A stretch of 64,000 nt of DNA from Oceanicola sp. 22II-s10i. GTDB taxonomy: Bacteria; Pseudomonadota; Alphaproteobacteria; Rhodobacterales; Rhodobacteraceae. The translations under genes were made by a program, and so were the position numbers. The DNA lies in contig NZ_AQQU01000005.1 of assembly GCF_002210105.1 (NCBI RefSeq), positions 248,001 to 312,000 of the forward strand. Reading direction: 5' to 3'. This document shows positions 49,782 through 61,469 of the stretch, piece by piece; within the stretch, counting starts at the first letter, position 1; each line of letters begins with the position of its first letter. Below the pieces are notes generated by a model that was not told the origin of the DNA, searched no databases, and worked only from the letters and a program-made list of their open reading frames with translations.

Positions 49782-49941
49782 AGCGTCCTCCCCGCCTGCT
49801 GGCCCAGTTAATCATCGCGCCCTGCGGCTGTCCATGACCGGGCTTTCATAAGGGCTTGCCGGACCGCGCGGCCCGCAATACCGATTGCGTATCCCGAGGG
49901 AGCCCGGAACGTCCGGTGTTCCGGCCCAGAGGTATCCGCCC

Positions 49942-50955
49942 ATGCTCATGCCGATGTCCGGCCGACTTTCGCTGCGCTCCATGGACCGTCAGGACTTTGA
50001 CCGGATCCGAAGCCTCGTGCAGGGCAACATCCTTTTCGACCTCGATCCCCAGACGGACGGACCCGCGCATATCGAGATCGGCGCGCTGATGTTTCCCGAC
50101 CTGCTGGTGACGGATGTCGCGCTGGACAACGTGATGGCCACCCGTCGGCCGGATCACATCGCCGCCGACGGCAATGACGATGTGACCCTGAACATCCCGC
50201 TGCAGGGGTCCGGGCTGATGACCTTTCCGCAGCGCACCGGCCCCTCGGGGGCCTTCGCGCTGGAGCCGGACGGACGGGCGCTGGTCATGACAAACGACGA
50301 GCCCTACCGCGGCACCTGCAGCCATGTCAGGTCCATCGTGATCTCGATGCCGCAGGCGGTGCTGGCGCCGCTGTCGCTGGACTTGGACAGGTTGCGCGCC
50401 GAAGGCGTCGCCCGTACCGCCGCCGTCACCCTGCTGGCGGACTACGCGCAGCTCGTCTGTCGTCAGGTCGATGCGCTGGCGCCGAACCTGTCGCGCCTCG
50501 CCTCGGCCAACATGCAGTCCATGCTGCGGATGATCCTGCAGGATGCCGAAACCCCCGAGGTCGACACCGCGCGGCAGAACATCCGGCTGGACACGATCAA
50601 GGAAGACATCCGCGCGAACCTGAGTTTCCCCATGCTGACGCTCGACTGGCTGGCGCCGCGTCACAACCTGAAGCCGCGCCAGATCCAGAACCTGTTCTAC
50701 GGTCAGGGCGAAAGCTTTTCCCGCTTCGTCCTGCTGGCGCGGCTGGATATGGCGCGACGGATTCTGGAAAGCCAGTTTGCCGAGACCCGGTCGATCAGCG
50801 AGGTCGCCCTGTCGAGCGGGTTCAACGACATCTCCTACTTCAACAACTCGTTCAAGAAGCTCTACGGGCATACCCCGAAACGGGTGCGCGAACTAGCCGT
50901 CGCACGGCGCAGCGCCCTGCATGCTACGGACGAGCCGGAGCAGGAAGCGGAGTAA
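49942..50955 (+). CDS. AraC family transcriptional regulator
   Basis: 337 residues from the ATG at 49942 (AGAGG nine bases upstream). The N-terminal about 200 residues are an AraC-binding-like domain typical of AraC_binding_2 proteins (FPDLLVTDVALDNVMATRRP). The C-terminal HTH pair is clear: LDWLAPRHNLKPRQIQNLFY and ISEVALSSGFNDISYFNNSF, then KKLYGHTPKRVREL. It is divergent from coxD and upstream of the autotransporter, with 89 bp to its start. Either could be its target; the divergent position favours cox. Confidence 0.9.
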   Translation: MLMPMSGRLSLRSMDRQDFDRIRSLVQGNILFDLDPQTDGPAHIEIGALMFPDLLVTDVALDNVMATRRPDHIAADGNDDVTLNIPLQGSGLMTFPQRTGPSGAFALEPDGRALVMTNDEPYRGTCSHVRSIVISMPQAVLAPLSLDLDRLRAEGVARTAAVTLLADYAQLVCRQVDALAPNLSRLASANMQSMLRMILQDAETPEVDTARQNIRLDTIKEDIRANLSFPMLTLDWLAPRHNLKPRQIQNLFYGQGESFSRFVLLARLDMARRILESQFAETRSISEVALSSGFNDISYFNNSFKKLYGHTPKRVRELAVARRSALHATDEPEQEAE

Positions 50956-51044
50956 AATCCACCAACCGTCCCGCCCAAGACACCCCGAGCCCGCGCCTCC
51001 TATACAGGCGCGACGTTTCAACAGGCGACAGGGTCGGACGGGTT

Positions 51045-54000
51045 ATGGGTCACAGGTCATTCGCGGCACGCAACGCGGTGTCTTTGCAGGCGTTTCTTAC
51101 GGTTACGACGGCCCTGGCCGCCTTGCCGTCGTGCGTCATGGCACAAGAAATCTGGACGGGCGCGGTCAGCTCCGACCTGACGGTCGACGGCAACTGGCAG
51201 GACGGATCGACACCGGTGCCGCCGCCCGGCGGCACGACCTTCACCGTCGGCAATTCGACCGACGCCATCGGGAACATGCCGGTCGTCACGACGGGGCAGA
51301 GCTTCGTCAGCCGGGGGCTCTCGATGGGTGGCCGGCAGGACGCCACGCTCGACATCCGGTCGGGCGGCACGCTGCAACTGGGCTTCGCCGGCGCGTCGGG
51401 CCGACTGATCGTCGGCGACAACGCGGGCCCGCTCGGGACCGGGCAGACGGCCCGCGTCAACGTCGAGGGGCTGCTGGACATATCGCAGGGCGGAACGGGC
51501 GGCACCGTGACTGTCGGAAACCTCGCGGGCGCGCAGGCCGAGATCGACATCCGCAACGGCGGCGCGATGACGGCGGGTTCGCTGTGCGTGGCCTGCGGCG
51601 ACGGGCCCTTCGCCGGCACCGGCACCGTCACGATCAGCGGTGCCGGGTCGCGGCTGGACACGCTCGGCAACGCCGGCCTGCGGGTCAGCGGCGCAACGAC
51701 AACCTCGGGCACCGGTACGCTGCGGATCCTCGACGGCGCCGAATTCCAGGCGGCTGCGGCAAGCGGATCGACCCTCGGGCACAACGGCCGGATCGAGGCG
51801 CGCGGCGCGGGCAGCCTGTTCGACCTGAACAGCGCGCTGAACCTGACGGGCGGCGACCTGACCGTCGCGGACGGGGCACGCGCGAACATCCAGTTCCTGA
51901 ACATCTCGAACGCAGGCGCCTCGATCGCCGTCGAGAACGGTGGCGTCCTGGCCTCCACCACGGCTTCGAGCTGGCAGATCGGGCAGGACGTCAGCCTGCG
52001 GGTCGCAGGCGCGGGCAGCGAACTGCTCGTGCAGGGGTCCTTGTCGATCAATTCCAGCAACATCGGTGCCCCCGTGGCCGACGTGGTGATCGAGAACGGC
52101 GGGCGCGTCGTCTCCTCCTCAGCCCAGGACAGCGGGCTCGGCTTTGGCGAGGCGCGCCGCGTGCTGGTGCGCACCGGTGGCGAGCTGAGCCTTGGCGGCG
52201 GGCTGGTGATGAACACCGGCGCCCTCGAGGTCGAGGGCGGCACCGCCACCATCAACGGCGCCCTGACGATGGGCAGCTTCTTTTCCGGCAACAGCCTGAC
52301 GCTGATCGACAGCGATTTCACCGCGACCCGGATCATCACGGGTGGCGGCACCGGGCCGGCCAACGTCATCAACCTGGGCGGCACGGCAGGCGGCCCCGCC
52401 GGCGCGCTCGGCACATTCGCCGTGGACGAAGTGCGCCTGAATCCATCGGGCGGCGGCGTGCCGGGCGAGATGATCCTGAACCACACCGAGACCGACTATC
52501 GCCTGTCGGCCACGATCGGCGGGTCGCAGGGCGTCATCCGTCACATCGCGGGCGACACGATCTACGATGCGCCGTTCAATCCCGCGATCCTGCCGGTGTT
52601 CCGTGGGGAACTAGCGATCACCGGCGGCACCTTCACAGTCGATTCCACCTTCGGCGAATCCGCGGCCCTGACGACCGCCACGGTCGCCAACGGGGGCACG
52701 CTGGCCGGGGCCGGATCGCTGAACGCGCGCACCGTCGTCACCGACGGCCGCCTCGCGCCCGGCAGCGACGGGACCGGCACGCTTTCGCTGTTCGGCGACC
52801 TGTTCCTGGCCGCGCGCGCGCAGCTCGACTACCAGCTGGGCGCGCCGGGCGGCGTCGCCGGCGTGGACAGCGACCTGATCAACATCGGCACCGGTTTCAG
52901 CCTGACACTGGACGGCACGCTGAACCTCGCGGATGCGGGCGGCTTCGGGCCGGGGCTCTACCGGCTGATGAACTTCACCGGGCCGCTGACCGACAACGGC
53001 CTCGACCTCGGCACGCTTCCGGCGGGGTTTTCGGCCAGCGACATGGCGGTGCAAACCTCCGTCGCCAACCAGGTGAACCTGCTGGTCAACGCCCCGCCGC
53101 CCCCGCCCGCCACCGCGGGCTTCCTCTGGGACGGCATCAACACCACCGCGAACAACGTGGTCGACGGCGGCAGTGGCACCTGGACCGCGACCGGCACCAA
53201 CTGGACGATCCTGAACGGCACCGCCAACGGGGCCTATGACGACCGGCAGCTGCTGATCTTCGCCGCGCCGGGCGGCGCGGTGACGCTGGACCTCGGGACC
53301 GGGGCGCTGACCGTGGACGCGGGACTGCAGTTCGCGGCGGACGGCTATGTCCTGGCGGGGGCGGACCTTGCGATCACCGACGACATGGTCCTGCGGATCG
53401 GCGACGGCACGGCGGCAGGCGCGGGCATTGTCACCACCTTCGCAAACGGCTTCACCGGGGCCTTCGACATCGAAAAGACCGACCTCGGCACCGCCGTCTT
53501 CAACGGCACCGGATCGGGCACCGGCGCGCTCGAGATCAACGCAGGCCGCGTGATCGCCAACGGCGCGCTGACCAACACCGACACGCTGGTGCTGGGCGGC
53601 GGGACACTGGGCGGGACCGGCACGCTGGCGGGCGCCGTCGATGTCCGCGCGGGCGGCACACTCGGCGCGGGCGACCCGCTGGTCGCCGGGAACCGGATCG
53701 GGACGCTGACCGCCGACAGCGCAACCTTTGCCTCGGGCTCCGTCCTCGCGGTCGAGCTGAACGACGGCGGCGCCACCGCGGGCGTCAACAACGACATCCT
53801 GCGCACGCGGGCGGCGATCATCAACGGCGGCACCGTGCAGGTCCGCGCGGCGAACGGCACCGACGACGGCAGCACCTACACCGCCGGGACGCGCTACACG
53901 CTGGTCAACGCAACGGCGGGCGTCACGGGCACCTTCACCACCCTGGACGAGAACTTCGCCTTTCTCGATTTCGCCCTCAGCTACGACCCGAATAACGTCT

Positions 54001-55088
54001 TCCTGACCTCGGTCGCGCTGACGACGCCCGGCGGCGGGTTCTGCCTGCCGGGTTACACGTTCAACCAGTGTTCGACCGGGAACGGGGTCGGCTCGCTCGG
54101 GTCCGGCACGCTGTTCAGCGCCGTGCAGGGCCTGTCCGCCGCCGAAGCGCCGCGCGCGCTCGACGCGCTGTCCGGCGAAATCCACGCGACCCTGTCGACC
54201 GCGCTGACCGAGGACAGCCGCCACCTGCGCGAGGCCGCCCTGTCGGCGGCCCGCAACGACGAGGGCCGGCGCGCATGGGTGCAGGTCTACGGCTCGGACG
54301 GGCATATCGGATCGGACGGCAATGCGGCGCGGGCGGACACGCGGTCGGCAGGCCTGACCTTCGGCCTGCCGCTGGTCGCGGACGGGCAGACGACGATGGG
54401 GATCTTCGGCGGCTACGGCGCGTCCGAGCTGTCGATCGGCGACACCCGCGCATCGTCCTCGACAACCAAGAGCTGGCACATGGGCGTCTACGGCCGTCAC
54501 AGCTGGGGCGCGCTGAGCCTGTCGGGCGGGGCCAGCCAGTCGTGGCACAGCATTGACGTCACGCGGACCGCCGCCTTCACCGGCTTCAGCGACCGGCTGA
54601 CCTCCTCGATGAACGGCCGAACGACGCAGGTCTTCGCCGAAACGGCCTGGCGGATGGAGGGCAAGGACGGCTATGTCGAGCCCTTCGCAGGTCTCGCCTA
54701 TGTCCGCACCGCCATCGACGGCAGCGGCGAAAGCGGCGGCGCTGCGGCGCTCACCGTGGCGGGGAGCCGTCACGACCAGCTCTATTCCACGCTGGGCCTG
54801 CGCGGCGGCACCAGCTTCGGGAGCGGCACGGGGCGCGTGACGGTCGACGGCGGGATCGGCTGGCGGCACGCCTTCCTCGACGTGACGCCCGAAACCAGCC
54901 ACAGCTTCGCGGGCGGTTCGGCCTTCGCGATCCGCGGCGCGCCCGCGGCGCGCGACGCTTTGGTGATCCATGCGGGGGTGTCGGGCAAGCTGTCGGCCAA
55001 GACCGACTTCAATATCGGGTATTCCGGCGCCATCGCCTCGGGCAGTGCCGAGCACAAGCTGTCCGGTATGCTCAAGGTCTCGTTCTGA
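51045..55088 (+). CDS. Autotransporter (type Va) with a beta-helix passenger
   Basis: 1347 residues. The signal peptide ends at CVMA-QE. Residues about 30-1015 form a repetitive passenger rich in Gly, Asn and short beta strands (GGTLQLGFAG, EIDIRNGGAM, VVIENGGRVVSSS), typical of a right-handed beta-helix. The autotransporter beta-barrel starts near residue 1065 (RAWVQVYGSDGHIGSD) and ends KVSF with a terminal Phe, as needed for BAM insertion. A Cys pair (GGFCLPGYTFNQCSTGNG) lies just before the barrel. Possible adhesin or biofilm factor, but no specific function seen. Confidence 0.92.
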   Translation: MGHRSFAARNAVSLQAFLTVTTALAALPSCVMAQEIWTGAVSSDLTVDGNWQDGSTPVPPPGGTTFTVGNSTDAIGNMPVVTTGQSFVSRGLSMGGRQDATLDIRSGGTLQLGFAGASGRLIVGDNAGPLGTGQTARVNVEGLLDISQGGTGGTVTVGNLAGAQAEIDIRNGGAMTAGSLCVACGDGPFAGTGTVTISGAGSRLDTLGNAGLRVSGATTTSGTGTLRILDGAEFQAAAASGSTLGHNGRIEARGAGSLFDLNSALNLTGGDLTVADGARANIQFLNISNAGASIAVENGGVLASTTASSWQIGQDVSLRVAGAGSELLVQGSLSINSSNIGAPVADVVIENGGRVVSSSAQDSGLGFGEARRVLVRTGGELSLGGGLVMNTGALEVEGGTATINGALTMGSFFSGNSLTLIDSDFTATRIITGGGTGPANVINLGGTAGGPAGALGTFAVDEVRLNPSGGGVPGEMILNHTETDYRLSATIGGSQGVIRHIAGDTIYDAPFNPAILPVFRGELAITGGTFTVDSTFGESAALTTATVANGGTLAGAGSLNARTVVTDGRLAPGSDGTGTLSLFGDLFLAARAQLDYQLGAPGGVAGVDSDLINIGTGFSLTLDGTLNLADAGGFGPGLYRLMNFTGPLTDNGLDLGTLPAGFSASDMAVQTSVANQVNLLVNAPPPPPATAGFLWDGINTTANNVVDGGSGTWTATGTNWTILNGTANGAYDDRQLLIFAAPGGAVTLDLGTGALTVDAGLQFAADGYVLAGADLAITDDMVLRIGDGTAAGAGIVTTFANGFTGAFDIEKTDLGTAVFNGTGSGTGALEINAGRVIANGALTNTDTLVLGGGTLGGTGTLAGAVDVRAGGTLGAGDPLVAGNRIGTLTADSATFASGSVLAVELNDGGATAGVNNDILRTRAAIINGGTVQVRAANGTDDGSTYTAGTRYTLVNATAGVTGTFTTLDENFAFLDFALSYDPNNVFLTSVALTTPGGGFCLPGYTFNQCSTGNGVGSLGSGTLFSAVQGLSAAEAPRALDALSGEIHATLSTALTEDSRHLREAALSAARNDEGRRAWVQVYGSDGHIGSDGNAARADTRSAGLTFGLPLVADGQTTMGIFGGYGASELSIGDTRASSSTTKSWHMGVYGRHSWGALSLSGGASQSWHSIDVTRTAAFTGFSDRLTSSMNGRTTQVFAETAWRMEGKDGYVEPFAGLAYVRTAIDGSGESGGAAALTVAGSRHDQLYSTLGLRGGTSFGSGTGRVTVDGGIGWRHAFLDVTPETSHSFAGGSAFAIRGAPAARDALVIHAGVSGKLSAKTDFNIGYSGAIASGSAEHKLSGMLKVSF

Positions 55089-55133: not shown

Positions 55134-55934
55134 TCATGCGTCTCCGCCGGGCAGGACCGCGACATAGTCCGCCGCCCCCTCTTCCAGATGCGCCGCCCCT
55201 GCCCGCTCGGTAACCGCGACCATCGCCCCGGTCACGCCCAGATCGGCCAGTTGCCACGACACGCCGCCGCTGAACTGCAGATGGCCCTTGCCGATGATCC
55301 CCACGACCAGCGGTCCGCCCACCTCGACCGCCCCGGCGATGCGGGTGGCAAAGCTGCGGTCCCAGACCTCCTGCGCGCGGATGAAGCGGGTGAACTCGGG
55401 CGACAAGGCATCCGCGCCGCGCCGCTCCTGCGGGACGCCACGGGCGAGGTCGAAGATGAACCGGCGGTAGGGCTCCGACGACGGGCGCGCGGGTGTCAGC
55501 CCCTCGCGATCCGCCTCGGGCACGCTGTCCCAACCGCCCTTACCGACCTCGCGGACGAGGCCCCGACGGCAGTTGAGGCCGATCATGCGGGTCCCGGTGT
55601 CCCGGCAGAACCGGAACAGCGGCAGGTAGAGTTCGGCCGGAAAGCCCCAGACCTCGCCCCATTCCGCACGCTCCAGAAACGCCTCTTCGGACAGCCGCCC
55701 GGCGACCCAGTCGGCCAGCACCGGGTCGAGCCGGGCCGGGAACATCTCGAACCCCAGCACCACCTCGCGCCGCGCCAGCAGGCCCGCCGCGACGTGCAGC
55801 TGCCAGCGGTGGATGTCGGCCCGGTCATGCGTTTCGCCCAGCAGGACCACCGGCGCCCGGGCCATTTCGGCCAGCACGACGGCGTGGGGGACCACGGCAT
55901 CGCCGCCGGGCCGGTACCAGTGCGGCGCGGTCAT
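55134..55934 (-). CDS. ChaN-family (iron-regulated) protein
   Basis: 266 residues from the ATG at 55934, overlapping the preceding stop as ATGA. The ChaN/haem-binding Cj0177-like domain is recognised by VVLLGETHDRADIHRWQLHV, LGFEMFPARLDPVLADWV, GLVREVGKGGWDSV and the GIIGKGHLQFSGGVS end. The conserved GETH and GKGH/GxGH are family landmarks. In Campylobacter ChaN binds haem as a surface lipoprotein; here there is no clear signal peptide or lipobox, so it may be cytoplasmic. Last gene of the four-gene unit with the TonB receptor. Confidence 0.83.
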   Translation of the reverse strand: MTAPHWYRPGGDAVVPHAVVLAEMARAPVVLLGETHDRADIHRWQLHVAAGLLARREVVLGFEMFPARLDPVLADWVAGRLSEEAFLERAEWGEVWGFPAELYLPLFRFCRDTGTRMIGLNCRRGLVREVGKGGWDSVPEADREGLTPARPSSEPYRRFIFDLARGVPQERRGADALSPEFTRFIRAQEVWDRSFATRIAGAVEVGGPLVVGIIGKGHLQFSGGVSWQLADLGVTGAMVAVTERAGAAHLEEGAADYVAVLPGGDA

Positions 55935-56641
55935 GCCGGGGTGGCCGGGACCACCGCGACCTGCAGCCCGGTCGGCGCGCCGTCGGCATCCAGCGCGACC
56001 CAGCCCTCGGGCGTCTCGCGCCAGTCCGCGACGGCCCCGGCCTTGAGATGCAGGTGGAAGTCGCCGGTCATCACGTTGGCAAAGCCCATGGCCGGGCGCA
56101 CCTCTTCGATCCGGCCCCGCCACGACTGTTCGCGCCCGTCGAGGGTCATGCGGATCTCGACCTCGGCCGCCCCGGCCCGCAGCCGGTCGAGCAGGACGAA
56201 ACCGGGATCCGCCGACATGTCGCCCGTATCGTCGGACATCGACGGCATGCGTCGCTCCTTGGGCGCGATCTCGACGCGCGTGCCGGTGTCGACGGCGGCC
56301 ACGAAGGCCTCGGCCCCTTCCATGGCGATGGCGCTGAACAGGACCTCGTCGCCGTCCTCCTGAAACTCGATGGCGGGATAGAACTTGCCCCGCATCTCGG
56401 AACTGGTGTCCAGCACGATCCGCCGCACCGCCGCCGGATCGACCCGCGCGGTGTGCACCGGCCCGCCGAGGGCGAAGCGGTCGCCGTCCGCCGCCACCGC
56501 GCCGACGGCGCCGATGCGTTCATGCGTCGCGCCGGCGTGGCGCAGGACGATCATCACCTTCTCCTGCCCCGCCAGCCGGCCGAGGACCTGCGCCGGATCG
56601 GCGCCTTCCAGATGCCAGCGGCCTTTCTCGATCTCGGTCAT
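55931..56641 (-). CDS. HemS/ChuX-like putative haem-handling protein
   Basis: 236 residues, smaller than two-repeat HemS/ChuS (about 340) but larger than ChuX (about 165). HemS-like features are VMIVLRHAGATHERIGAVGA, the ALGGPVHTARVDPAAVRRIV segment, then IEFQEDGDEVLFSAIAMEG and NVMTGDFHLHLKAGAVADW. I read one complete and one partial repeat of the haem-utilisation fold. Such proteins bind, traffic or degrade haem in the cytoplasm. Overlaps of four bases join it to both the ABC and ChaN genes. The family call is moderate; it could be a related binding protein with another ligand. Confidence 0.55.
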   Translation of the reverse strand: MTEIEKGRWHLEGADPAQVLGRLAGQEKVMIVLRHAGATHERIGAVGAVAADGDRFALGGPVHTARVDPAAVRRIVLDTSSEMRGKFYPAIEFQEDGDEVLFSAIAMEGAEAFVAAVDTGTRVEIAPKERRMPSMSDDTGDMSADPGFVLLDRLRAGAAEVEIRMTLDGREQSWRGRIEEVRPAMGFANVMTGDFHLHLKAGAVADWRETPEGWVALDADGAPTGLQVAVVPATPA

Positions 56642-58359
56642 GCGGTTTTCCTTTCGGTTTGTGGGACCTCTCCGATGGTCCAGACTCCGGTGTGGTCGAG
56701 CCCGACAGGCTCTCGGTGCGCGACACAGAGGATCGCTGCGGTCGGCAGGTCGCGGCGCAGGATCGCCAGAAGGTTCGCCTCGCTCGTCGCGTCCAGCGCC
56801 GAGGTCGCCTCGTCCAGCACCAGCCAGCCGGGGCGATGCAGCAGCACCCGCGCCAGGGCCAGACGCTGGCGTTCGCCCAGCGACAGCCCTTCGAGGGCGA
56901 CCTCGCTGTCGGCCTCCAGCGCCCCGAGGCGATGCGACAGGCCGACCCGTTCCAGCACTGCACGCAGGCGGGCGGGGTCGAAATCATCGGGACCGGAGGG
57001 ATAACAGGCGGCGGCGGCCAGACCGTCCGGGCAGAGGTAAGGACGCTGCGGCAGGACAAAGATCGGCGCCTCCGGCGTCTCGATCCGGCCCTCGCCGTAG
57101 CGCCATAGGCCCGACAGCGCGGTCAGCAGCGTCGTCTTGCCCTGCCCCGACGCACCCGAGATCCAGATGCGTTCGCCCCGGCGGATGGTCCGGTCGGGCA
57201 CCGGCGCCAGCCAGCGGCCCTGCGGCGTGGCCAGCCGCAGACCACGGACATGCAGTGCGTCGTCCGCGCTTGTCCCACGGTCGACAGCCGCCGCGACGCC
57301 GCCCACGGGTTCGGGATCGCCCGTCACGCGGAACAGGTCGTCCAGCCGGTGCGCGACGGCGGCCAGTTCGGCCAGATCGCGGTATTTGAAGATGAACCAC
57401 GACAGGGTCGTCGTGACTCGGCTGAAGGTGCTCGACAGCTGCATCAGCCCGCCGAAGGTGACGGACCCGGCGAAATAAGCGGGCAGCGCGAAGAACAGCG
57501 GGACGCGCAGGACGGTCTGGTAGTAGGGCCGCGTGAACAGCCCGAGGATCAGCTCGCGCCGGATCAGCCGCAACCAGTTGTGCCGGATGCCCTGAAACCG
57601 CGCGTCCAGCCGCCGCCGCTCGGCCGCCTCGCCCCCCGCCTGCGCGATCTCGGTCGCGTTGTCGCGCAGCTGGACGAGGGTGTGCCGGAAATCCGCCTCG
57701 CGCCGTTCGTGGCTGAAGTAGAGCGACTTGAGCGGCCAGCCGACCATGTGCGTGATCGCGCTGGATACGAGGACATAGAGAAAGGCCAGCCACACCATGT
57801 AGCGCGGGATCTCGATGTCGAAGCCGAGCGCTGTGAAGTGCAGCACGAAATCCGACAGCGTCCACAGGATGGCGACATAGGTCACGACTCCCGCGATCCG
57901 TCCGACGAGGTCCAGTGTCAGTTCCAGCAGCAGTTCGACGTAGCGGTCGCAATCCTCGGACACCCGCTGGTCGGGGTTGTCCACCGTTTCGGCTGACAGT
58001 CCGGGGCGCAGGTGCCAGTACGCCCGCCCCCCGGTCCATGCATCCAGCGCATCGCCCGTCAGCTTCTGCCGCCAGCGCAGCCACAGCCGTTTCCGCAGGT
58101 AGTCGCTGACCAGAAAGATCGCGGCGGAGCCTGTGACCAGCATGCCGAAGACGCCCAGTTCCCGCATGGCGGTATGCGCATCGAGCTGCTCCAGCGCGTC
58201 ATAGAACCGGCGGGTCCATGCGATCATCTGCACGTCGACCCAGAGATCGACGAGTATCAGCACCAGAACGATGGCGAACAGCGCGAACCCCACACCGGCG
58301 CCCGGTCCGAAGGCCGCGCGCCGGGTCAGGGCCCGGATGCGTCCGAGGGTGACACGCAT
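56638..58359 (-). CDS. SbmA/BacA-type ABC transporter with fused ATPase (YddA-like)
   Basis: 573 residues. Six transmembrane helices (about residues 1-310) match the ABC_membrane_2/SbmA-BacA fold: WVDVQMIAWTRRFYDALEQ, WRQKLTGDALDAWTGGRAYW, DNPDQRVSEDCDRYV, and the EEA-like READFRHTLVQLRDNATEIA (about residues 220-239). The ATPase domain has Walker A GASGQGKTTLL, the signature LSLGERQRLALAR, Walker B WLVLDEATSALD and the H-loop HRE. Most relatives are importers of peptides or vitamin B12 (Rv1819c). Here the gene touches a TonB receptor gene with no gap, so import is inferred. Inner membrane. Confidence 0.87.
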   Translation of the reverse strand: MRVTLGRIRALTRRAAFGPGAGVGFALFAIVLVLILVDLWVDVQMIAWTRRFYDALEQLDAHTAMRELGVFGMLVTGSAAIFLVSDYLRKRLWLRWRQKLTGDALDAWTGGRAYWHLRPGLSAETVDNPDQRVSEDCDRYVELLLELTLDLVGRIAGVVTYVAILWTLSDFVLHFTALGFDIEIPRYMVWLAFLYVLVSSAITHMVGWPLKSLYFSHERREADFRHTLVQLRDNATEIAQAGGEAAERRRLDARFQGIRHNWLRLIRRELILGLFTRPYYQTVLRVPLFFALPAYFAGSVTFGGLMQLSSTFSRVTTTLSWFIFKYRDLAELAAVAHRLDDLFRVTGDPEPVGGVAAAVDRGTSADDALHVRGLRLATPQGRWLAPVPDRTIRRGERIWISGASGQGKTTLLTALSGLWRYGEGRIETPEAPIFVLPQRPYLCPDGLAAAACYPSGPDDFDPARLRAVLERVGLSHRLGALEADSEVALEGLSLGERQRLALARVLLHRPGWLVLDEATSALDATSEANLLAILRRDLPTAAILCVAHREPVGLDHTGVWTIGEVPQTERKTA

Positions 58360-60606
58360 CTAGAACCTCATGTCGAAGCTGACGGCGAAGGTCCGACCCG
58401 GTCCGGTCTGCAATTCGATCGGATTGGTGCGGGCGACGCTCGCGCTGGCCGTCGCGCCATAGGTGGCGGCGTTGGCGGTGAAATAGCGGGTGTCGAAGAC
58501 GTTGTTCACGCCGAGGTTGAGGAAGCCGTCCGGGATCACCTCCCACTTGGCGTGCAGATCGAAGACGGCGTAGCTGCCCGGCTTGTAGTCGGTCGGGCTC
58601 GCCGTTTCCTTGACCGCCGCCGCAAAGGTGCCGACCCCTTCCAGCGTCAGGCCGTATTGCGGGATCTCGTGGGCCAGCGCGACGGTCGCGGTCAGCGGCG
58701 GCAGGGTGTGCGGCGTCTTGGCCGCCGTGGGGCTGCTGCGCTGTTCGCCCTTCTGCCATGCGGCGCTCAGGCTCATCGAGGTGTCGCGGCTCAGCGCCCA
58801 TCCGGCCGAGGCCTCGATCCCCCAGACGCTGACCTCGGAAATGTTGCGATAGGTGTAGTCGGTGGTGCCCGGCGGGTTGTAGAAGCTCTGGATGAAGTCG
58901 GTGTAATCGGCACGGAAGGCGTTGACCGCAACGAACCCGCGCTGTTCCTCGTAGCGCAGGCCAAGCTCATAGCTTTTGACCTCTTCCGGTCGCAGGTTCG
59001 GTGCCGGGACCAGATCGAAGGACGTGCCGGGCAGCGAGGTGAACAACTGCTGAGAGGTCGGCATCTTGAACCCCTCGCCGTATTTCGCCCAGACCGACCA
59101 GCGGTCGTCCAGCCGCCAGAGCGCGCCGAGGCTCTTCAACAGCGCCTGATCCTCGCGCACCCGCGGCTCCTGCCCCGGCACCGCCTGGTAGTCGCCGTCG
59201 GGCCGGGGGTCGATGTGATAGGTCGCGAACCGCAGGCCGGGGGTCAGTTCGAACCGGCCACCGCCAAGGGTGATCCGGTCCTCGATATAGACATCGGCGC
59301 GGCGCGTGGTGGCATTGGCAAAGTTGAACCCGCCCGCCCGCGTCTCGGTCACGGTGCCGGTGGTCAGGTTGGTTTCGACGTCCCGGCGGGAATAGTCCGT
59401 TCTGGCGATGTCCCCGTCGAAGCCGATGATCAGCCGGTGATCCGCCGCTCCGGTCGAAAAGCGGGCGGTCGCCTGCACGTCGAGTTCAAAGAAGTCCTCG
59501 GAGAATTTCAGCTCGTCCCGCGTGCGGATGCTGTCGCCCGCCGCCGAGGTCGACAGCTCCGTCCCGGTCCGGCGGTAGCCGTGCGGGGTATAGGCGAAGG
59601 TTGTGACGACCTCGTCGAACGGTCCGGCGTCCGGGGTCCATGTGTGTTCCACGCCGAAGCGGTTGCGGTAGAGGTCGAGATGCCGGTCCTTCTTGTTGAT
59701 CACTTCGCCCGTCGCGGCCCCCGTGATGGACGAATAGACCGGACCGAGCGTCGCGTTCTGGGCGACATCGGTGTCCCGGTCCAGCACGTCCGCGCTGAAT
59801 TCCAGCCGGTGGCGGCTGTCGGGCGTCCAGACCAGTTTCAGCAATCCGCGGGTGGATGTGCTGTCGGTCGGATCGAAGGACCCGCAGGGCGTCGCGCCCC
59901 AGGCGATATTCCGGGGACAGCCATAGATGCCGCCGTCGTCCCGCGCGTTCGACAGCTCCGGCTCGTGCCCGGTTTCCCGTGCGATGCCGGCCAGCACCGA
60001 AACGGTGTCCGACAGGCGCTGGCCAAAGCTCAACGTCACCCCTGTGCTGCGGTCGTAGCTGTCATACTTCGCCCGCGCGCGGACAGCCTGATCCTCGCCC
60101 ATCAGCAGGTCGTCGGGGTCGATCGTTTCGAACGCCACAAGCCCGCCGAGCGCATCCGCCCCCCACAGGACCGAGGACGGGCCGCGCACGATCTCGGCCT
60201 GCTTGGTGAAGTTCAGGTCGACGTAATCCCGCGTCCCGTCGATGATCCGCTCGGCCATGCGCGATCCGTCGACCTGCACCGCCACGCGGTTGCCGCCGAC
60301 GCCCCGGATGGTGAAACCGCCGAGCGTGCTGAACGGGTCGGCGCCCGAGCTCTGCCGGTTCACGGTCACGCCGGGCAGCCTGCGCACGAGTTCCTCGATA
60401 TCCGAGATCTGCCGGTCTTCGATCTCGTCCGCGCCGATTACCGTGATGTTCGACGGCACATCCAGCACCTCGGCCCCCGCGCGGTCGGTATTGACCACGA
60501 TCGGATCGAGCGTGACCGGTCCCTCCTGCGCGAAAACGGCGGCGGGGCAGAACACGGTGGCAAGCAGCGCAGCACGTATGCTGCGTGTCGGACGGGGATG
60601 GTGCAC
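58360..60606 (-). CDS. TonB-dependent outer-membrane receptor, haem/haemoglobin-receptor family
   Basis: 748 residues from a GTG at 60606 with TAGGAG seven bases upstream; the ATG at 60672 has no such site. Signal peptide to VFAQ. The plug domain starts PIVVNTDRAGAEVLDVPSNI with a TonB-box-like start. The 22-strand barrel contains GLKxxxxQ-type and a FRAP-like motif GEGFKMPTS followed by VPAPNLRPEEVKSYELGLR, the PNL box of haem receptors, and ends MRF with a terminal Phe. Unlike HemR/HmuR there is no His in the plug or between FRAP-like and PNL boxes, so haem coordination would differ. First gene of the unit. Confidence 0.9.
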   Translation of the reverse strand: MHHPRPTRSIRAALLATVFCPAAVFAQEGPVTLDPIVVNTDRAGAEVLDVPSNITVIGADEIEDRQISDIEELVRRLPGVTVNRQSSGADPFSTLGGFTIRGVGGNRVAVQVDGSRMAERIIDGTRDYVDLNFTKQAEIVRGPSSVLWGADALGGLVAFETIDPDDLLMGEDQAVRARAKYDSYDRSTGVTLSFGQRLSDTVSVLAGIARETGHEPELSNARDDGGIYGCPRNIAWGATPCGSFDPTDSTSTRGLLKLVWTPDSRHRLEFSADVLDRDTDVAQNATLGPVYSSITGAATGEVINKKDRHLDLYRNRFGVEHTWTPDAGPFDEVVTTFAYTPHGYRRTGTELSTSAAGDSIRTRDELKFSEDFFELDVQATARFSTGAADHRLIIGFDGDIARTDYSRRDVETNLTTGTVTETRAGGFNFANATTRRADVYIEDRITLGGGRFELTPGLRFATYHIDPRPDGDYQAVPGQEPRVREDQALLKSLGALWRLDDRWSVWAKYGEGFKMPTSQQLFTSLPGTSFDLVPAPNLRPEEVKSYELGLRYEEQRGFVAVNAFRADYTDFIQSFYNPPGTTDYTYRNISEVSVWGIEASAGWALSRDTSMSLSAAWQKGEQRSSPTAAKTPHTLPPLTATVALAHEIPQYGLTLEGVGTFAAAVKETASPTDYKPGSYAVFDLHAKWEVIPDGFLNLGVNNVFDTRYFTANAATYGATASASVARTNPIELQTGPGRTFAVSFDMRF

Positions 60607-60690
60607 GGGCAGGCTCCTACGGGTTGAGATCCGGAAGCTTGCGTCGTGGCTGGCATCGGTTGGGTCGGCCATATCTCGCCGACGTGTGGG

Positions 60691-60719
60691 GTTATCTTTA
60701 AGTTGATAGTTTCAGTCAA
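60691..60719 (-). promoter_or_regulatory. Promoter with iron-Rhodo-box-like palindrome of the TonB receptor operon
   Basis: On the minus strand TTGACT (60719-60714), 17 bp, GATAAC (60696-60691). The -35 overlaps a palindrome TTGA-N9-TCAA (60703-60719), the form TGA-N9-TCA known as the iron-Rhodo-box, bound by RirA-type regulators in Rhodobacterales. Position and overlap suggest repression when iron is plentiful. Confidence 0.65.
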
Positions 60720-60839
60720 GATATTTTTTCAACGCCCTTTCAAGGGCCGACCGGCCCCTCCCGACTTGCAAAACCGGGCCGGAGCAGGCGCTATCGGCGC
60801 AAGGGCCACGGCCCGCGACGTCACCTGAGAGGAGCAGGC

Positions 60840-61469
60840 ATGAAACTTTACGACTTCAAATTCGCGCCGAACTGTCGACGCGTCCGCTTTTTCGCCGCCG
60901 AGAAGGGGGTCGCGCTGGACTACGTGCCGGTCGACATGATGACCGACGAACAGCTCAGCGCGGACTACGCGCAGGTCAACGCGCGCCGCACGATCCCGCT
61001 GCTGGAACTGGACGACGGCACGCGGCTGAGCGAATCCGTCGCGATCTGCCGTTACCTCGACGCGCTGAACCCCGAACCGCCGCTGTTCGGCACGGGCCCC
61101 ATGGGGGTCGCGCTGGTCGAGATGTGGCACCGCCGGGTGGAGCTTGAGGGGCTGATGGCCGTGGCCGAGGCGCTGCGCAACGGCGTCGACCGGTTCAAGG
61201 ACCGAGCGATTCCCGGTCCGCACAACTTCGAACAGATCCCGGCCCTTGCCGAACGCGGGCACCGGCGGCTGGACAGCTTCTACGACATGCTGGAGGCGCG
61301 GCTGGCGGAGAGCCCCTACCTTGCGGGCGAGGACTATTCGATCGCCGACATCCTCGGCGTCGTGACCGTGGATTTCGCCCGCGCGGTCAAGAAGCGGATC
61401 CCCGAGACGCACGAGAACCTCGCGCGGTGGCACGCCGGGATTTCGGCCCGTCCGGCCGCAGCCGCCTGA
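60840..61469 (+). CDS. Glutathione S-transferase family protein
   Basis: 209 residues. The N-terminal thioredoxin-like domain (MKLYDFKFAPNCRRVRFFAA, cis-Pro in RTIPLLELDDG, then LSESVAICRYL) binds glutathione; the C-terminal helical domain contains YLAGEDYSIADILGVVTVDF. The residue at the usual Ser/Cys/Tyr site is in FAPNCRR. It detoxifies electrophiles or acts in a catabolic step with glutathione. It is divergent from the TonB receptor and only 93 bp from its start, so it might also respond to iron, but no separate promoter was resolved. GAGAGGAG precedes the ATG. Confidence 0.9.
   Translation: MKLYDFKFAPNCRRVRFFAAEKGVALDYVPVDMMTDEQLSADYAQVNARRTIPLLELDDGTRLSESVAICRYLDALNPEPPLFGTGPMGVALVEMWHRRVELEGLMAVAEALRNGVDRFKDRAIPGPHNFEQIPALAERGHRRLDSFYDMLEARLAESPYLAGEDYSIADILGVVTVDFARAVKKRIPETHENLARWHAGISARPAAAA

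Follow-up and report, generated by a model that had tools for sequence, protein, structure and literature searches.

Here we describe a run of four tightly packed minus-strand genes within positions 55134-60719 of a 64,000-nucleotide stretch of the Oceanicola sp. 22II-s10i genome (contig NZ_AQQU01000005.1, positions 248,001 to 312,000; hereafter the window), encoding a TonB-dependent receptor, an ATP-binding cassette (ABC) transporter, a HemS-like protein and a ChaN-like protein (Table 1). The passage of haem through the inner membrane is usually attributed to transporters of the HmuTUV type, which receive it from a periplasmic binding protein. The best reading of the operon is a new variant of haem uptake in which an importer of exporter fold works without a binding protein, and it points to an undescribed way for haem to cross the inner membrane. 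We put the probability at roughly 60% that the operon serves iron-responsive, HmuP-boosted haem uptake with a homodimer of the ABC protein as the importer and with the HemS-like and ChaN-like proteins handling the haem.

In this model, the PhuR-like receptor would bring haem into the periplasm via TonB, and the Rv1819c-type exporter-fold ABC homodimer, needing no binding protein of its own, would pick it up there and use ATP to import it. Two cytoplasmic proteins, the compact HemS-like one and the ChaN-like one that has no signal sequence, would then receive, buffer or help degrade the haem. We infer this chain of events, from haem as the cargo and the direction of transport to the homodimer, the handover and what the two small proteins do, as well as the regulators. 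That the cargo is haem-like is well supported, because the link to haem-type receptors is clade-wide, the leader contains an HmuP-type motif and HmuQ-like or PNPOx-fold genes are found where the HemS-like gene is missing.

The layout of the operon and the families of its proteins can be read directly from the sequence. The receptor stop codon (58362-58360) is followed by the ATG of the ABC gene (58359) with a gap of 0 nt, and ATGA overlaps join the ABC and HemS-like genes at 56641-56638 and the HemS-like and ChaN-like genes at 55934-55931. A −4 overlap was present at one or more of the last two junctions in 9 of 12 related four-gene loci and at both in 4 of the 12, the other junction values in these loci being partly due to our script taking the earliest start. 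Family searches of the proteins of the run showed that it encodes no HmuT, HmuU or HmuV. A preliminary description of this DNA had reported touching or overlapping minus-strand genes and an operon lacking a binding-protein or HmuUV gene, and both statements hold, the latter for the four-gene run.

The window receptor scored 340.3 bits against TIGR01786 (cut-off, 323.75 bits), and PhuR (8THE) was its sole solved relative below 1e-30. Among seven clade receptors scored, all except that of locus L228 were above the cut-off of TIGR01785 or TIGR01786. In the regions of the FRAP and NPNL boxes, where PhuR has GFRTPT and NPNLKPE, the receptor has GFKMPT and APNLRPE, and no histidine was seen by eye between these two segments. 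A B12 operon was rejected because the best models of the receptor are haem-type. The open frame as listed begins at ATG 60672, 5′ of the conserved leader motif described below. Because GTG 60606 is preceded by AGGAG at 60618-60614 and followed by a plain signal-peptide-like start (by eye), and because the leader motif lies between both codons, GTG 60606 is the likelier translation start. Cys252, Cys263, His343 and Met537 (numbered from ATG 60672) are invariant in 14 aligned cassette receptors, with Met537 being the Met of a FRAP-like box (FKMP).

We searched for the ABC protein in 120 relatives, 12 of which matched at 1e-20, and in 394 family genomes, nearly all from different genera, 16 of which matched at 1e-60. 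In a 57-row tree, the 19 receptor-linked ABC rows formed one clade (support 96/89), and none of 500 label shuffles gave a value as low for the grouping of the linked labels. Profile searches of the open frames in the flanks showed a TonB receptor for 19/19 linked rows vs 0/38 others; the window's own receptor entered this count by annotation, and the 0/38 covers the fetched flanks, some of which are short where contigs end. HemS-like or ChaN-like proteins occurred in the flanks of linked rows only. Rows L189 and L020 were labelled as linked before the tree was made, and the receptor of L189, which is of another type and convergent, was found only afterwards, while L191, whose ABC gene is split over two reading frames, and L050 were left out of the tree as short. 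The out-group ABC loci, at best ~37% identical, came from the matches listed in a generic ATPase-motif scan. The 19/19 against 0/38 distribution rejects chance adjacency, and together with the six of seven receptors above cut-off it supports a tie of this ABC clade to haem-type TonB receptors, for which a neighbourhood search had been proposed as a check. Of the linked rows, L020 (G103, from another family of the class) is the furthest removed and has the receptor and ABC genes only; the receptor-ABC pair may have come first.

At an ABC identity of at least 54%, 15 loci were found including the window, 3 in the genus and 12 elsewhere in the family, and the order receptor-ABC-HemS-like-ChaN-like is kept in 13 of them; the same gene order was found in Rhodobacterales, Stappiaceae, Devosiaceae and Rhizobiaceae. 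One exception, L190 (G377), has the receptor and ABC genes along with convergent ChaN-like, HmuQ-like (121.5 bits; cut-off, 130) and siderophore-interacting-protein genes. In the other, L189 (G341, 73% complete), the ABC gene is convergent with a TIGR01785 receptor (339.9 bits) that comes after a PNPOx-fold gene, whose product has an uncharacterised protein as its best solved relative and haem-binding proteins among the lower-ranked ones. Both loci without a HemS-like gene thus have a HmuQ-like or a PNPOx-fold gene nearby.

Plasmid records matching the ABC protein numbered 265, with five at an identity of at least 47%; the four of these five loci that were inspected (Pannonibacter, Paracoccus, Devosia and Rhizobium) all carry all four genes, and the cassette was absent at the two inspected plasmid loci of 40% identity or less (Azospirillum and Rhodobacter). 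Four cassettes (L225-L228) lie on large plasmids, and that of Paracoccus aminophilus pAMI4 directly adjoins repABC. The plasmid location of the cassettes suggests horizontal spread. The cassette of G435 (L186 197-14240) adjoins another TonB receptor and ABC import genes in an iron-acquisition island, in which FecCD was assigned by profile match and the rest by eye.

The ABC protein carries PF06472, PF05992 and PF00005 in one chain, with PF00005 at residues 391-520, and its sequence contains GASGQGKT, LSLGERQ and LVLDEATS, which we take to be the Walker A, signature and Walker B motifs, and an H-loop His. Among solved transporters, the closest by sequence was Rv1819c (2.1e-161), with ABCD4 ranking fourth to sixth (from 4.2e-75), and the structural alignment with Rv1819c gave 31% identity. 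Residues specific to the clade include W115, C137, Y161 and F324. The earlier assignment to an SbmA/BacA type is correct for the PF05992 membrane domain, but SbmA/BacA proper was rejected because of the PF00005 ATPase domain in the chain, and by sequence the fused protein is nearest to Rv1819c. Given the SbmA/BacA membrane domain, and given that exporter-fold siderophore importers, YbtPQ and IrtAB, exist (PMC10967856, available excerpt), the ABC protein could import peptides or a ferric siderophore, with the haem-like neighbours being incidental or serving a haem-peptide or siderophore. The tight junctions and the clade-wide linkage to haem-type receptors argue against such a cargo, as do the related ABC loci outside the clade, of which 0/38 have such neighbours, and we regard it as very unlikely.

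The operon promoter contains an iron-box-like palindrome (TTGACTGAAACTATCAA) that is followed by a weak -10-like AGATAA/GATAAC. Because 23 of 100 window shuffles also yielded one or more matches to TTGA-N9-TCAA, the palindrome is notable through its place at the promoter, even though it is the only such match in the window. It is exact in 2 of 15 leaders, with one mismatch in 3 more, and a TTGAC half-site was seen by eye in several others. The TTGA-N9-TCAA element of the preliminary description is therefore present and overlaps a -35-like hexamer, but it is only partly conserved, and a consensus promoter scan found no sigma-70-type site at the operon promoter. According to the available excerpt of PMC4618611, a 19-bp Iron-Rhodo-box that overlaps promoters is bound by IscR in Rhodobacteraceae without RirA, and the operon palindrome would fit such a box in kind.

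The leader further carries a twin motif that resembles an HmuP-responsive element known from a haem receptor gene, printed as CCCGCAAGCCAGCCGACAGCCAGCCAGCG in PMC9131926 and credited there, in the available excerpt, to Amarelle et al. 2019. Once receptor starts had been adjusted, 14 of 19 leaders (window, L014, L180, L181, L183-L188, L190 and L225-L227, with the copies of L227 26 bases apart) showed two GC[ACT]AGC copies upstream of the start; those of the window, L180, L181, L182, L187 and others were moved for this count. Before adjustment, the twin was found in 10/14 leaders, against a background of 1.0% in random windows of 120 bases. The fetched loci contain 23 further receptors, and of these 3/7 beside hmuS and 1/16 others have a twin near the listed start; only the hmuR of L210 has it clearly upstream, and the twins of L213, L214 and L208 are just inside the listed open frames, so that they count as leader motifs only if translation truly begins further downstream. 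The window's own genome encodes hemP (63 bits), HemP/HmuP genes are present in 16/16 operon-clade genomes, and within the family hemP occurs in 12/12 operon genomes vs 30/50 others (p = 0.005), the 12 and the 50 being two different draws here and below. Twin motif and hemP are thus both present, as in an HmuP-controlled receptor gene, and from them we infer HmuP control. A search of window positions 60400-60900 against Rfam gave one match, far under the gathering score, and no shared leader hairpin is claimed, as one suspected by eye fell in a leader alignment too loose for a pair test.

The HemS-like protein scored 28.1 bits against PF05171 over residues 8-58 only; its profile matches fall in two stretches, i.e. 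two tandem HemS domains, and its structure model aligns with HemS over 214 of 236 residues. One histidine is invariant in 9/9 canonical HmuS proteins and is presumably the haem ligand of HemS and PhuS; the surrounding segment of ~50 alignment columns is absent from 13/13 HemS-like proteins. Because all 13 lack this segment, haem handling should differ: the HemS-like protein would bind haem in another way, or bind a related molecule instead. All 13 HemS-like proteins share a different histidine, His196 (in FHLHL), at a position where HmuS has Asn or Asp. Ligand handling by the HemS-like protein, as initially proposed, is favoured by its HemS fold but not by the missing segment. The ChaN-like protein far exceeds the PF04187 cut-off of 27.7 bits, its family profile matches Campylobacter jejuni ChaN (2G5G) at 3.7e-6, and, unlike for the lipoprotein ChaN, no signal sequence was visible by eye in an alignment of 12 proteins.

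The exchange of one invariant histidine for another would suit a receptor and ABC protein that import a different tetrapyrrole, such as a non-haem metalloporphyrin, a free porphyrin or a corrinoid, with the HemS-like and ChaN-like proteins adapted to it. Rv1819c and ABCD4, to which the ABC protein is closest among solved transporters, both carry cobalamin (PMC3603451, available excerpt), and genomes with the operon often have a complete hmu system as well. We nevertheless consider a different tetrapyrrole unlikely, since the clade receptors score on haem models, HmuQ-like and PNPOx-fold genes are among the neighbours, and the HmuP-type leader motif is common to hmuR.

Several results weigh against haem uptake by the operon. 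HmuT (1.8e-31 or better) was found in 11/16 genomes with the ABC clade, which is literally the outcome, hmuTUV in most operon genomes, that the preliminary description had named as refuting its proposal. In the family outside the genus, HmuS is commoner in operon genomes (8/12 vs 14/50, p = 0.019); within the genus, it was found in 1/3 operon genomes vs 13/19 others (p = 0.53). The window's own genome has other FecCD systems, one of which adjoins a receptor that scores best against TIGR01785 (182 bits, under cut-off), and it has no HmuQ or DUF2470 match and so, by these models, no recognised enzyme of haem degradation, a search that did not extend to the classical haem oxygenase PF01126. The HemS-like protein is without the invariant histidine of HmuS, and the HmuP-responsive element is not strictly haem-specific, as another one is reported before a siderophore receptor gene (PMC9131926, available excerpt). 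Finally, hemP is also present in 57/120 relatives and in 22/22 of the genus, and was therefore rejected as an operon-specific marker.

Whole-genome searches at 1e-5 gave no HmuT match for G000 (the window's own genome), G306 and G294, and weak ones only for G011 (2e-7) and G426 (7e-8). A full two-domain HmuS is present in 10/16 ABC-clade genomes, and neither HmuT nor full HmuS was found in 5/16, the window's own included, where the PF05171 search misses the operon's HemS-like gene at E 1e-3 and so informs on full HmuS only. HmuS, T, U and V occur together in the fetched loci, except at a contig end (L218), and G170 has HmuTUV-like genes without HmuS. HmuQ was found in 8/16 ABC-clade genomes, including, above cut-off, G426, G306 and G294 (three of the five without HmuT), and was not found in G011. 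The under-cut-off receptor of the window's own genome adjoins genes for an ATPase, two FecCD permeases and, as judged by eye, ExbD/TonB-like proteins (L197 4496-9189, contig C4), and this locus is a possible second iron-compound route.

The presence of HmuT in 11/16 genomes would also agree with export of haem or a breakdown product by the ABC protein as a detoxification step, haem entering through another inner-membrane system. The fold is that of an exporter, and the haem exporter CydDC is among the structural matches at rank 37 (PMC13337084, available excerpt). Against this, HmuT was not found in 5/16 genomes, leaving the ABC protein as the receptor's gene-order partner, and receptor co-linkage in 19/19 clade rows fits import better, which makes export improbable.

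Simple replacement of hmuTUV was rejected, as HmuT occurs in 11/16 genomes and HmuS is enriched. Because of these HmuT counts, and because HmuS tends, if at all, to be more frequent where the operon is present, haem uptake by the operon looks like an additional route able to stand alone and not like a general hmuTUV substitute: it is apparently an extra haem route in most ABC-clade genomes and the only recognised one in a few. The predicted combination of a conserved four-gene order with genomes free of hmuTUV thus holds for the order, but HmuT lies elsewhere in 11/16 genomes and was not found in 5. In genomes without HmuT, gene order makes the ABC protein the receptor's partner. Its proposed role as the inner-membrane step for a haem-like ligand is partly supported, through the haem-like cargo and the tie of its clade to haem-type receptors. 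The chances are about even that the ABC protein is the founding member of a clade of haem importers that have an exporter fold and need no binding protein; a single homodimeric half-transporter would then do what HmuTUV does, alongside a reduced HemS that handles haem without the usual histidine, and in some genomes, including the window's own, this would be the sole recognised haem route.

Table 1. Features of the operon and its leader, in window coordinates.
Feature	Position	Strand	Remarks
PhuR-like TonB-dependent haem receptor	58360..60606	minus	TIGR01786 above cut-off; likely start GTG 60606
Rv1819c/SbmA-fold ABC transporter, 573 aa	56638..58359	minus	membrane + ATPase domains, one chain
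Compact HemS-like protein, 236 aa	55931..56641	minus	
ChaN-like protein, 266 aa, without visible signal peptide	55134..55934	minus	PF04187 183 bits
Iron-box-like palindrome TTGA-N9-TCAA, TTGACTGAAACTATCAA	60703..60719	minus	overlaps -35-like TTGACT (60719-60714)
Twin motif GCCAGC (60654-60649) + GCAAGC (60642-60637)	60637..60654	minus	HmuP-responsive-element-like

Convergent to the operon, window positions 49885-55088 encode an autotransporter of 1347 residues and a regulator of the AraC type. On the Pannonibacter plasmid, the cassette is directly preceded by a related autotransporter (L225 1-3405; 35-37% identity in two stretches), and a functional link between autotransporter and operon is possible.

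Haem uptake in Roseobacter has been described through hmuTUV, and the available excerpt of PMC5225302 makes no mention of a receptor-Rv1819c-type ABC arrangement. In the literature searched, which leaves out most subscription journals, no paper title describes an SbmA- or Rv1819c-type haem importer. If the proposed haem uptake is true, haem would join the short list of exporter-fold importer cargoes, and a cargo could be assigned to some members of a large ABC family that now carries a peptide-transport annotation. It would also account for haem use by Alphaproteobacteria in which hmuTUV-based surveys see no haem transport.

The operon shares with the HmuRSTUV and PhuR-PhuSTUVW systems a haem-type receptor, a HemS-family protein, a putatively iron-responsive promoter and an HmuP-type leader motif, and PhuW is the ChaN-like gene of the Phu system. 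Unlike in these systems, HmuT, HmuU and HmuV are missing from the operon, which has one exporter-fold half-transporter instead, and the HemS-like protein is shortened and without the HmuS histidine. YbtPQ and IrtAB each consist of two different half-transporters. They resemble the proposed importer as type IV exporter-fold importers of an iron compound (PMC10967856, available excerpt), but their cargo is a siderophore. SbmA/BacA proteins differ in being without an ATPase domain (PMC3603451, available excerpt) and in their peptide cargo. Rv1819c and ABCD4, the nearest solved relatives by sequence, likewise have fused membrane and ATPase domains, but they are not in receptor operons and their cargo is cobalamin. 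Because Rv1819c imports B12 without a known binding protein (PMC3603451) and YbtPQ and IrtAB import siderophores (PMC10967856), these transporters, as described in the available excerpts, would be precedents by analogy for binding-protein-free import through an exporter fold.

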